A stretch of 39,081 nt of DNA from Prochlorococcus sp. AG-418-C09. GTDB lineage: Bacteria > Cyanobacteriota > Cyanobacteriia > PCC-6307 > Cyanobiaceae. Location: the NCBI GenBank assembly GCA_003214355.1, contig QCLS01000011.1:1-39081 (forward strand). Reading direction: 5' to 3'. The translations under genes were made by a program, and so were the position numbers. Shown here piece by piece: positions 28,642 through 32,741 of this stretch (position 1 is the first letter of the stretch; each line of letters starts with the position of its first letter). The notes below the pieces were generated by a model that had not been told where the DNA came from, made no database searches, and worked only from the letters and a program-made list of their open reading frames with translations.

Positions 28642-30156
28642 ATGGAAATAAGTTATGAATCAGTAAAGTCACTTGGTATTTTAGTGCATCCCTCAAGCCT
28701 CCCAGGAGGGACATATTGTGGGACCTTTGGTAAATGTCTTGAAGACTGGATTGATACACTATCTAGGCACAGAATAACAACCTGGCAATTTTTGCCATTA
28801 TCCCCAACTGATTCAACAGGCTCTCCTTATAGTTCTCCTTCTAGTTTTGCTCTTAACCCATGGTTAATAGATGTTGATGAACTACAGCAAAATAAATACA
28901 TATCTAAACAAGAGTCCTTTGAGGAGATAAGAAAGGGGAGTGAGGTTTTAAATTATTTTGATTTTAAAATTGCAGATAATTTGTCTAGCAAGATTGGAGA
29001 CGTTCTTTTAGATGCATGGAGGTATCAATCAGATCATAATAAGGTTTTATTCTCGAAATGGATTAGTAAAAATAATTGGGTAGAGGATTACGCAATATTT
29101 ATGAGTTTAAAAGATGAATTTTGTAATATGGCTTGGTGGGAGTGGCCTGAAGAATTTAGTTCAAGAAATGAGAAACATATTAAATTATGGGTTTTAAACA
29201 ATAAAAAGAAGTTATTAAAAACGAAATTAATTCAATGGCATTTGGATAGACAGTGGCAGAAAATAAAAAAGAGAGCAAAAACTAATGGGATAAAGCTGGT
29301 TGGAGATTTACCTTTTTATGTTTCAAGAGATAGCGTTGATGTCTGGAGTAATAGATCTCTTTTCTCTGTTTCATCTAATGGGGATTTAATTTTCCAAAGT
29401 GGGGTACCTCCAGATTATTTCTCAGATTCTGGTCAGCTATGGGGGACCCCCGTTTATTATTGGGCTAAACATCAAAGAACAAAATTTGATTGGTGGAAAA
29501 AACGATTTACAAGGCAATTTGAATTAGTTGATCTCTTAAGACTTGATCATTTTCGAGCAATGGCAGGTTATTGGAGGGTAGATGGGAAAGCTAAAAATGC
29601 TATTGATGGGCAATGGATTAGATCTCCTGGTAAGACTTTATTAAAAAGCCTTATGACTGCTTTAAGAGTAGATAGCTTACCCATCATTGCAGAGGATCTT
29701 GGAGTGATTACAGATGATGTTAATATTTTAAGGGATGAATTTGACTTGGCAGGCATGAAGATATTGCAATTTGCTTTTGATGGGAATAAAGATAATCCTT
29801 ACCTTCCAGAGAATTATGAAGGGGATAATTGGGTCGTCTATACAGGTACGCATGATAATTCAACTACTACTTCTTGGTGGAATAATCTAGACGAAAATTT
29901 AAAAAGAAACTTAAATGAAAAATATAATTTCTCAGATCAACCTTCTTGGGATTTAATGGAATTAGGCATAAGGACTAATGCAAAACTATTTATTGCTCCA
30001 ATACAAGATATTCTATCTCTGGATGATTCTTGTAGATTAAATAAACCTGGTACAACAAAAGGAAATTGGAAATGGAAATTAAATAAAGAATTAATTGAAA
30101 TTAATTCTTTTTTGGAAAGATATTCAGAAATGGGGAAAAAGTATTCTAGAAATTGA
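28642..30156 (+). CDS. malQ: 4-alpha-glucanotransferase (amylomaltase)
   Basis: A 504-residue GH77 enzyme that transfers maltosyl segments between alpha-1,4-glucans, handling short chains during glycogen breakdown. The start region is GILVHPSSLPGGTYCGTFG. The nucleophile Asp is in LLRLDHFRAMAGYW, the acid/base Glu in IIAEDLGVI, and the stabilising Asp in YTGTHDNSTTTSWW. Length matches bacterial and plastid DPE1-type enzymes. It has a long AT-rich leader with a candidate promoter and ends 8 bp from the tail of the RodZ-like gene on the other strand. Confidence 0.95.
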   Translation: MEISYESVKSLGILVHPSSLPGGTYCGTFGKCLEDWIDTLSRHRITTWQFLPLSPTDSTGSPYSSPSSFALNPWLIDVDELQQNKYISKQESFEEIRKGSEVLNYFDFKIADNLSSKIGDVLLDAWRYQSDHNKVLFSKWISKNNWVEDYAIFMSLKDEFCNMAWWEWPEEFSSRNEKHIKLWVLNNKKKLLKTKLIQWHLDRQWQKIKKRAKTNGIKLVGDLPFYVSRDSVDVWSNRSLFSVSSNGDLIFQSGVPPDYFSDSGQLWGTPVYYWAKHQRTKFDWWKKRFTRQFELVDLLRLDHFRAMAGYWRVDGKAKNAIDGQWIRSPGKTLLKSLMTALRVDSLPIIAEDLGVITDDVNILRDEFDLAGMKILQFAFDGNKDNPYLPENYEGDNWVVYTGTHDNSTTTSWWNNLDENLKRNLNEKYNFSDQPSWDLMELGIRTNAKLFIAPIQDILSLDDSCRLNKPGTTKGNWKWKLNKELIEINSFLERYSEMGKKYSRN

Positions 30157-30163
30157 AAAATAA

Positions 30164-30667
30164 CTAAATAGGCAGCTCCTCTGAGTTGTTTATATTTTTT
30201 TCAATAAATTCAAATTCAATAATTCTGGTTCTCATATAGTAGTTATTTAAAATAAAAATAGAGATTATTAATATCAACAAATATATTACATTTCCATGCC
30301 AAGAACTTAAGAAATCAAATTTATTAACAACGAAACTCTTTCCCACCTTTTTTTTTGTCTCACCTATTTCTTTCTCAGCTATATTAGTTAGTTGATATTT
30401 CTTTAGAAATAAACATTCTTCGAGTTTTAATAGGATTGACCTTATGAATGGATATCTTGGCCTTATTTCTTTAATGTTATTCTCAATAGCATTAATTGTA
30501 GATAGGGGTATCTTCGAAATGTCTGATAGTTGTTTAATAGATATATTCTGCTCTATTCTCGATCTTTTTATAAGATTACCTATCTCTTTATATGGATCAT
30601 CTATTAAAATTTGATCCTCTTGTTTTGTCTCAACTTTTTTTGGAAAGATTAGCTGAAATATTTTCAT
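30164..30667 (-). CDS. Short RodZ-like helix-turn-helix membrane protein
   Basis: A 167-residue protein with a cytoplasmic XRE/RodZ-type helix-turn-helix (about residues 29-90, IGNLIKRSRIEQNISIKQLS and IPLSTINAIENN). A basic stretch follows, then one membrane helix (about 122-147, VIYLLILIISIFILNNYY). Only some 20 residues follow the helix. Canonical RodZ, which couples MreB to the envelope, has a larger periplasmic domain. The gene is unusually AT-rich. It overlaps the RsuA-like gene by ATGA (30664-30667), so the two are translationally coupled. RodZ-like describes architecture. The function is not shown. Confidence 0.75.
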   Translation of the reverse strand: MKIFQLIFPKKVETKQEDQILIDDPYKEIGNLIKRSRIEQNISIKQLSDISKIPLSTINAIENNIKEIRPRYPFIRSILLKLEECLFLKKYQLTNIAEKEIGETKKKVGKSFVVNKFDFLSSWHGNVIYLLILIISIFILNNYYMRTRIIEFEFIEKNINNSEELPI

Positions 30668-31011
30668 TTATTTTTTCTCAATTGATAACTTTCTATTTTT
30701 ATCAACTCCCCTTCCCTTAATATACCTAGTGATATATTACCAACTTTAATAGGATGTAATTCTATCTCGCTTAAACCTAAGAAACTAATAATTCTTCTTA
30801 TTTGCTTACTTATTCTTTCCGTAATAACTATTTTGTAAAAACTATTATTAAGCTCTTTCTTTAAGATATTTTTGCAGGGATTTATTTTCATTCCAATGTC
30901 GATAATTAGTCCATTTACTAGGGTCTTTTTATTCCTAATTAGTATTTCTGCTTTCCTTCTTGTGCAAATACCTAAATCTGATATCGTTTTGTTAATTACT
31001 TTGTGACTCAA
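30664..31011 (-). CDS. RsuA/RluB-like protein lacking the catalytic core
   Basis: A 115-residue protein. Residues 4-45 form an S4 RNA-binding domain of the pseudouridine-synthase type (DLGICTRRKAEILIRNKK, TLVNGLIIDIG). Directly after it comes the family's C-terminal segment (YKIVITERISKQIRRIISFLG, then LHPIKVGNISLGILREGEL), matching the RNRQIRRM region that ends RsuA/RluB enzymes. About 120 residues in between, including the GRLD motif with the catalytic Asp, are absent with no frame break. It cannot be an active pseudouridine synthase as seen. The start codon is TTG at 31011, since the ATG at 31018 is out of frame. Confidence 0.72.
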   Translation of the reverse strand: MSHKVINKTISDLGICTRRKAEILIRNKKTLVNGLIIDIGMKINPCKNILKKELNNSFYKIVITERISKQIRRIISFLGLSEIELHPIKVGNISLGILREGELIKIESYQLRKNK

Positions 31012-31079: not shown

Positions 31080-32741
31080 TTAATATACCGGAGTTATTAT
31101 ATCTTTTAAGGCGCTTTTTGCTATTTTTAGCGGACTGAAAGTATCTCTAAGTAAATTAAATAATTTCTCAGCATCTCTAAACTCTAATCTGTCATCATGA
31201 ATAAGACTCATTAAAAGATTCTTTCGAAATTCATATCCTTTCTTACTTATGATTAGTTTTAAACTAGCATTAGCTACAGGAATTAAGTCTTTATTTATGT
31301 TTAAAGAGTCTTTGAATAAGATATTTAATAAACTTTCTAATTTATCAAGTTGTAATCTTCCATTTTTATCGAAGATAACATCAATTAGAATGTTAACAAT
31401 TTCATCAGAGTCATCTGTCAGGAGTTTTTTGGCAATATATGGGTAAGCAATCCTAATAATCTTAAAATTTGGATCTAGTCTAAGTGCTAAACCTTCTTGG
31501 CTTACAACGGCCCTAATTATTAAGGCGAACCTACTCGGTACTCTAAAAGGATAGGAGTACATAAGTTTTGAAAACTTATCGGTTATCTTCTTAAAGTTGA
31601 ATTCACCTACTTCTTCTCCTAGTGAACCTCCTAAAACTTCTTTTAATGGATCTACAAGTATATTTAGATTTTGTTTATCACTTAGAAAACCTAATGTCTG
31701 AAAGTCTTTAGCTAATAATAAATATTCATTGTTAATTAAATGAACAATCGCTTTAATTAATGTAATTCGATCAGAGTTACTTATTGAATCCATCATCCCA
31801 AAATCCACATAAGCTATATGTCCATTTTTTGAGTCCCCTCCTTTTAAAGCAAACATATTGCCAGGATGAGGGTCGGCGTGAAAATAACCATATTCAAAAA
31901 GTTGTTGAAGTCCACTTATTACCCCAGTTCTTATGAATGATGAAGGTACAAGGTCACTTCTTTCTATTTCTTCTCGGTCTTTAAGCTTTACCCCATCTAC
32001 CCAGGATGTTGTAATTACTCTTCTAGATGTGAGGGATGTTTCTACTTTGGGGATATGGATATCATCATTATCTTTAAATAGATTTGCAAATTTTTGTGCA
32101 TTTTTAGATTCTTGTTCATAATTGATTTCTTCAAATAAAGCTTTTCCAAATTCATCAATTATTGCGCCTATCCCAACTCCAATATTTAGAGGTAGAAAAG
32201 GAGAAAATATTTTTGCTAATATTTTTAGAATTACAACATCTCTTTTAATTATAAAGGTTAAGTTAGGTCTTTGAACCTTTACTGCTACATAATAGTTAGC
32301 CTTCAGTTTTGCTTTGTAAACTTGTCCAAGACTCGCTGAGGCTATGGGTTCAGTTGGAAAATCTTCAAAAAGAGTACTCACATCTGATCCAAGTTCTTCT
32401 TCTATAGTTTTTAATGCTATTTTGTGATCAAAAGCTGGGAGATTATCTTGAAGATTAGATAATTCATTTAACCAATCTTGCCTTACTAGGTCAGGCCTGG
32501 TTGATAAAGCTTGACCAAGTTTTATGTAGCAAGGACCAAGGTCTGTTATTACATTAAACAAATACTTAGATAGGTTCTTTTGAACAACCTTATTTTTACT
32601 CCCACCTTGAAATAATAATCTAATTAAGAAAAATGTTAATGTTAGCAATATGTATAAAATTCTAGGAAATAATATCCAAGGCCTTAATAGAAGCCAGATA
32701 AGATCCCCTTTCGCTGAATACTTAGTTTCCAAATTATTCAT
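31080..32741 (-). CDS. ABC1/UbiB family atypical kinase
   Basis: A 553-residue ADCK/UbiB-type protein. The family's KxGQ motif is in YIKLGQALSTRPDLV. The Ala-rich nucleotide loop is ASASLGQVYKAKL, the Lys is in VAVKVQRPN, the catalytic loop is FHADPHPGNMFAL, and the metal-binding Asp is in AYVDFGMMDSI. A membrane-associating hydrophobic segment sits near residues 20-45. Members act in quinone or other lipid homeostasis, and cyanobacteria carry several copies, so the exact role is unknown. It starts with ATG and is divergent from the PLP decarboxylase gene across 68 bp. Confidence 0.93.
   Translation of the reverse strand: MNNLETKYSAKGDLIWLLLRPWILFPRILYILLTLTFFLIRLLFQGGSKNKVVQKNLSKYLFNVITDLGPCYIKLGQALSTRPDLVRQDWLNELSNLQDNLPAFDHKIALKTIEEELGSDVSTLFEDFPTEPIASASLGQVYKAKLKANYYVAVKVQRPNLTFIIKRDVVILKILAKIFSPFLPLNIGVGIGAIIDEFGKALFEEINYEQESKNAQKFANLFKDNDDIHIPKVETSLTSRRVITTSWVDGVKLKDREEIERSDLVPSSFIRTGVISGLQQLFEYGYFHADPHPGNMFALKGGDSKNGHIAYVDFGMMDSISNSDRITLIKAIVHLINNEYLLLAKDFQTLGFLSDKQNLNILVDPLKEVLGGSLGEEVGEFNFKKITDKFSKLMYSYPFRVPSRFALIIRAVVSQEGLALRLDPNFKIIRIAYPYIAKKLLTDDSDEIVNILIDVIFDKNGRLQLDKLESLLNILFKDSLNINKDLIPVANASLKLIISKKGYEFRKNLLMSLIHDDRLEFRDAEKLFNLLRDTFSPLKIAKSALKDIITPVY

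Follow-up and report, generated by a model that had tools for sequence, protein, structure and literature searches.

Hsp15 and RqcP are stand-alone S4-domain proteins; both are short, and the S4 domain is their sole recognizable RNA-binding part. The same domain forms the N terminus of RsuA/RluB/RluE/RluF-type pseudouridine synthases (TIGR00093; PDB 3dh3 RluF, 4lab, 4lgt RluB), in which it is followed by a catalytic core with a GRLD motif and by a C-terminal segment with the letters QIRR. For E. coli RluB, an excerpt of PMC3919597 describes how the S4 domain (residues 1–60) pins the 23S stem-loop at its loop end, and places Asp110 and Arg194, of motifs II and III, in a catalytic domain (residues 66–251). 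Genome reduction in Prochlorococcus has removed many genes of small effect, as stated in an excerpt of PMC3940434; among the titles and abstract openings found by searching open-licence PubMed Central papers, none reports loss of the synthase gene in Prochlorococcus.

We analyzed a stretch of 39,081 nucleotides of Prochlorococcus sp. AG-418-C09 (the window, contig QCLS01000011.1) in which a gene of this family has likely been caught at an intermediate stage of a recent death. The source genome is a single draft (32 contigs, 95% complete), and the window's genus, judged by named relatives, is high-light-type Prochlorococcus. The locus has the following features:

28642 to 30156, forward strand: a gene that we take to be malQ-like, a convergent neighbor conserved in relatives
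30164 to 30667, reverse strand: rodZ-like gene with an HTH_25 match and a weak match to the RodZ model; its ATG overlaps the TGA of the remnant
30664 to 31011, reverse strand: remnant, by homology, of an RsuA/RluB/E/F-type pseudouridine synthase without the core; 115 codons from TTG (31011–31009) to TGA (30666–30664)
30679 to 30870, reverse strand: C-terminal synthase part of the remnant (residues 48–111), matching positions 167–230 of a profile of eight intact same-slot homologues with 29.5 bits
30868 to 30996, reverse strand: S4-domain part of the remnant (residues 6–48), matching positions 4–46 of the same profile with 28.0 bits and Pfam S4 with 19.1 bits
31012 to 31079, reverse strand: spacer from the ABC1 gene to the remnant; AATATACATTAA in this spacer and TTGAG at the start of the remnant are common to locus L032 of a relative
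31080 to 32741, reverse strand: ABC1 atypical-kinase gene (PF03109, 3.7e-69), the upstream neighbor and synteny anchor

By its slot and by the homology of both ends, and as far as sequence can tell, the 115-codon frame is a descendant of the RsuA/RluB/E/F family. The initial annotation had described an S4 domain joined directly to the C-terminal segment of a synthase, and this is what the two profile matches, which meet at residue 48, reproduce. Also as it had stated, the catalytic core is gone (profile positions 47–166, ~120 central residues with the GRLD motif included), the 115 codons are open with no premature stop or frameshift, and the frame overlaps the next gene as ATGA, formed by its TGA and the ATG of the rodZ-like gene. 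Two stops lie just upstream of the TTG, the first in-frame ATG is residue 41, within the S4 part, and the TTG occupies the ATG position of the intact genes of two other-genus loci (L127 and L132), four codons before an aligned Arg/Val.

Compared with the intact synthases, the remnant has 115 codons versus ~240 and is without the GRLD core; a Pfam scan of the short frame found no PF00849 match at E ≤ 1. The Pfam S4 score is under the gathering score (22.8), the TIGR00093 score is 25.6 bits versus a cut-off of 109.3, and NCBIfam gave weak matches to the RsuA/RluB/E/F family only, far below every cut-off of the families matched. The family motif EGRNRQIRR reads ERISKQIRR in the remnant (GRNRQIRR replaced by RISKQIRR), with both arginines of GRNR changed to Ile and Lys, and the S4 signature residues (GICTRRKAEILI...VNG) are retained. 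AlphaFold, run on the remnant with its two nearest remnants in a three-row alignment, gave a model of too low confidence to be informative (mean pLDDT 51). Without the GRLD catalytic region, any protein made from the frame cannot act as a pseudouridine synthase and could at most bind RNA through its S4 part. Hsp15 and RqcP, compared by description only, share with it the small size and an S4 domain as the sole recognizable RNA-binding part; they differ in that the S4 domain of the remnant would be derived in place from a synthase and lies below the Pfam cut-off.

Of 25 loci read in other genera (L127–L151), eight have an intact ORF with GRLD and 200 codons or more downstream of ABC1, namely L127, L130, L132, L133, L135, L136, L139 and L148; these ORFs have ~240 codons, and a rodZ-like frame comes directly after the ORF in L127, L132, L136 and L139. 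Among the other 17 loci, some contigs or stretches stop early (L140 has the frame start only) and some carry other genes; L129 and L131 have no part of the intact frame downstream of ABC1. Since the intact gene occupies the slot in several related genera, the ancestor most likely had it. The intact genes of L127 and L132 score 173.2 and 163.7 bits with TIGR00093 and, when scanned, neither reached the equivalog cut-off of RluB, RluE, RluF or RsuA; the designation ‘RsuA/RluB-type’ given earlier to the remnant therefore holds at the family level but not at the equivalog level.

A second, RluF-like enzyme sits elsewhere in genomes of the genus (317.9 bits in the one scanned, versus a cut-off of 318). 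Origin of the remnant from this paralogue was considered and rejected: the C-terminal part scores 20.9 bits with it versus 31.5 with the same-slot family, which the slot also fits. The S4 part alone slightly favors the paralogue (35.3 versus 30.3 bits). The window's draft genome (G000) yielded no RluF-like gene and no other member of the RsuA family, which at 95% completeness does not prove loss; the one PF00849 protein of this genome, in a 333-residue frame, is presumably RluD-like. In the same genome a search through one neighboring gene did not locate the paralogue's locus, an absence that may reflect loss or an assembly gap. No protein above the TIGR00093 cut-off was found in seven of 12 relatives tried (G405–G408, G410, G412 and G413; completeness not given). 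All 52 near-complete genomes of the genus, the window's presumably among them, match the short protein, and among the matches listed nearly all sit in frames of ~240–270 codons.

The ABC1 relatives used were the best 80 of 378. The interval between ABC1 and rodZ was measured in 94 loci, including four from other genera and one duplicate of the window; loci whose contig ended before rodZ or which had no rodZ match were left out, and 89 loci of the genus (the window included) were thus covered. Nine of these have no in-frame rodZ ATG; their interval was taken to the first matched rodZ residue and their frame ends were left unscored. As L113–L126 may duplicate named loci (L116 and L062, for example, have contigs of equal length), locus counts should not be read as numbers of independent genomes.

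No intact gene was found in the slot at any of the 89 genus loci, and the states of the slot form a graded series. The slots of L063 and L114 (~770–780 bp) contain stops, with the C-terminal part alone recognizable, and are gene-length pseudogenes; L114 (G022) lies in a single-contig genome. L106 (slot of 342 bp) has a core-less open frame of 88 codons (L106:6236-6499) that runs from the start of the S4 domain straight into the C-terminal part, and its stop overlaps the rodZ ATG. In L032 (slot of 274 bp) both the S4 domain and the core are gone and a 69-codon frame is kept. The window, L032 and L106 have all lost the middle of the gene, and both ends remain. Short 3′ remnants are present in L036, L050, L064 and L097, and in 73 of the 89 loci the slot is no longer than 125 bp. 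Similarity to the start of L106, the sign of a 5′-end scar of the gene, is above the 99% shuffle threshold at 23 of 88 loci (~0.9 expected); similarity to the window's start is so at eight of 88. Many loci of the genus have ATGAGAAGTAAAAGGATTATTTAG-like or TTGAGTAGT-like letters ~40 bases before rodZ; they are a scar of the first codons of the lost gene and possibly part of rodZ's leader.

Four of 266 genomes of the genus pass E ≤ 3e-7 in a search for the short form. Three of them match by the S4 part of a frame of 244–247 codons, and only the window's genome has the S4 and C-terminal parts in one short frame (1/266), at a threshold that could miss more diverged short forms such as L106. In the ABC1 tree L032 is the sister of the window (branch at 99). 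On this tree the label ‘remnant’ requires seven changes, and starred branches force six of these, an indication of repeated erosion. The tree was, however, made by a quick method and 50 of its 83 inner branches lack support; in it ‘lost’ means that the profile found no remnant, and L129, a locus from another genus, does not have the gene. A separate observation concerns L037:6212-7039 (HNLC1 scaffold), where the 3′ half of ABC1 is present a second time as a partial copy, probably an assembly artefact, beside an unreadable run (X in translation).

The remnants of the window and L032 were aligned over 68 codons, all C-terminal except four at the start, with 21, 29 and 30 differences at codon positions 1, 2 and 3, versus proportions of 0.27/0.15/0.45 in rodZ and 0.15/0.09/0.39 in ABC1. 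Over 59 C-terminal codons the proportions are 0.31/0.41/0.42. The differences between the remnants, unlike those in rodZ and ABC1, are without coding bias; decay in L032 alone may contribute to this. In comparison with intact homologues, the second-position difference is 0.455 for the C-terminal part (0.235 among homologues) and 0.38 for the S4 part (0.244 among homologues); the corresponding ABC1 values are 0.185 and 0.15. The ABC1-scaled excess is 0.165 for the C-terminal part (95% interval 0.07–0.27) and 0.08 for the S4 part (95% interval −0.03 to 0.20, not significantly above zero), while intact genes treated alike, unscaled, range from −0.05 to 0.08 and from −0.03 to 0.05, respectively. 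Judged by these substitutions, the C-terminal part is under relaxed selection. The initial annotation had named relaxed selection and a short form found only in this strain as signs against function. Relaxation is seen in the C-terminal part, with the S4 interval including zero; the short form is indeed restricted to one genome at E ≤ 3e-7, but L106, without a core and with its S4 domain truncated, is a related form.

Of the invariant residues, the remnant retains eight of 13 (S4) and nine of 18 (C-terminal), versus 13 of 13–15 and 18 of 18–20 in left-out intact genes. Each part of the remnant has a profile score of ~30 bits, versus 53–60 (S4) and 82–92 (C-terminal) in left-out intact genes. 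GC content of the S4 part is flat over codon positions 1/2/3 (0.30/0.30/0.28; 0.41–0.59/0.37–0.48/0.13–0.35 in 14 homologues), which is supporting and not decisive evidence because the values of the window's rodZ are low too (0.32/0.22/0.25). Ranked by codon usage among real gene fragments, the whole frame lies at the 17th percentile, the S4 part at the 6th and the C-terminal part at the 37th; the whole frame is within the real-gene range, and 6% of wrong-frame fragments score higher.

An open frame of 115 codons at 34% GC is unexpected in old neutral sequence. Under neutral substitution only, the probability that it stays open falls from 0.13 at 0.1 changes per site to 0.04 at 0.2 and to 0.012 at 0.25; the C-terminal excess, if wholly neutral, suggests at least 0.2 changes per site. 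That both 68-codon C-terminal frames, of the window and L032, should be open has a probability of ~0.03 for 0.3 changes per site in total and of 0.01 for 0.44. A single deletion keeps the frame with a chance of 1 in 3. Given this low neutral openness, the frame was either recently released from selection or is kept, for the S4 domain or for coupling to rodZ.

Coupling to rodZ would make the protein itself irrelevant: the frame would serve as an open leader, ribosomes arriving at the ATGA would reinitiate on rodZ (translational coupling), and only in-frame deletions would be tolerated. The TTG-started frame has 115 codons in the window, 69 in L032 and 88 in L106, with its end at +1, +1 and −2, respectively, from the rodZ ATG, and eight scar loci (L042, L045, L055, L060, L066, L090, L118 and L120) have a 13-codon TTG frame ending as ATGA; in all, a TTG frame ends on the rodZ start in 11 of the 80 loci scored. 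The overlap of the intact L127 gene with rodZ, as TAATG, fits such coupling, as do the C-terminal frames of the window and L032, both open despite neutral-looking divergence. We nevertheless find the explanation improbable, since the other 69 of the 80 loci either have no frame from the TTGA[AG]T start that was sought or have the stop elsewhere (e.g. 16–18 bases before rodZ), rodZ persists without an open upstream frame at the stop-containing slots of L063 and L114, and a recent death would equally leave an open frame.

We rate as just as doubtful a surviving RNA-binding mini-protein, whose S4 domain would bind the rRNA stem-loop or another RNA under selection and whose C-terminal tail would be baggage. 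The retained signature residues are in line with this, and the S4 part has diverged less than the C-terminal part at second positions, with an excess that is not significant. This excess (0.08) is nonetheless above the unscaled range of intact genes, five of the 13 invariant S4 residues are lost, the Pfam score is under its cut-off, and neither the flat GC nor the low codon-usage percentile of the S4 part favors a selected protein; moreover, the form was found in one genome only at E ≤ 3e-7, and the S4 domain is gone from the sister L032. There is accordingly only a slim chance of a selected S4-only protein in one high-light-type Prochlorococcus lineage whose draft genome yielded no other RsuA-family enzyme. 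That the core was dropped in assembly from a gene that is really intact is very unlikely: the genome is a single draft of 32 contigs, but damage to the C-terminal motif and relaxation of the sequence are unlike an intact gene, the 89 genus loci yielded no intact gene in the slot, and the sister L032 is core-less as well.

Recent gene death is thus the reading that we prefer, and the remnant is probably without a selected function. The graded states of the slot, the short form in one of 266 genomes, the relaxation of the C-terminal part and the damaged motif count for decay, as does the sister locus without S4 domain and core. The 115 open codons, the TTG-to-rodZ frames of the window, L032 and L106, the non-significant S4 excess and the whole-frame codon usage in the real-gene range count against it. 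In the simplest account, the gene inherited from the ancestor would already have been dispensable in the clade and eroded within the genus, probably repeatedly; in the window's genome the catalytic core would have gone by an in-frame internal deletion so recent that the open frame and the S4 part still survive, and the remnant would be heading for the scar seen in relatives. Between the two outcomes that the initial annotation had offered, a remnant with a new role and a gene in clean decay, the evidence favors decay and leaves a new RNA-binding role improbable.

The locus resembles the gene losses of streamlined Prochlorococcus, as presented in the same excerpt of PMC3940434, in that an ancestral gene has been lost in small-genome lineages; it differs from the losses presented there in that a putative in-frame internal deletion has left a long open frame and that the series of slot states is readable. 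A clade-level loss of an rRNA pseudouridine synthase is possible. If selection on the S4 domain were true, the enzyme would have been reduced to its own RNA-binding domain. The remnant is ordinary in kind; it is the graded series of gene death that is informative, for the slot presents readable stages in which one dispensable rRNA-modification gene vanishes from a streamlined ocean cyanobacterium, with the warning that a clean open frame with a recognizable domain can be a gene being lost.
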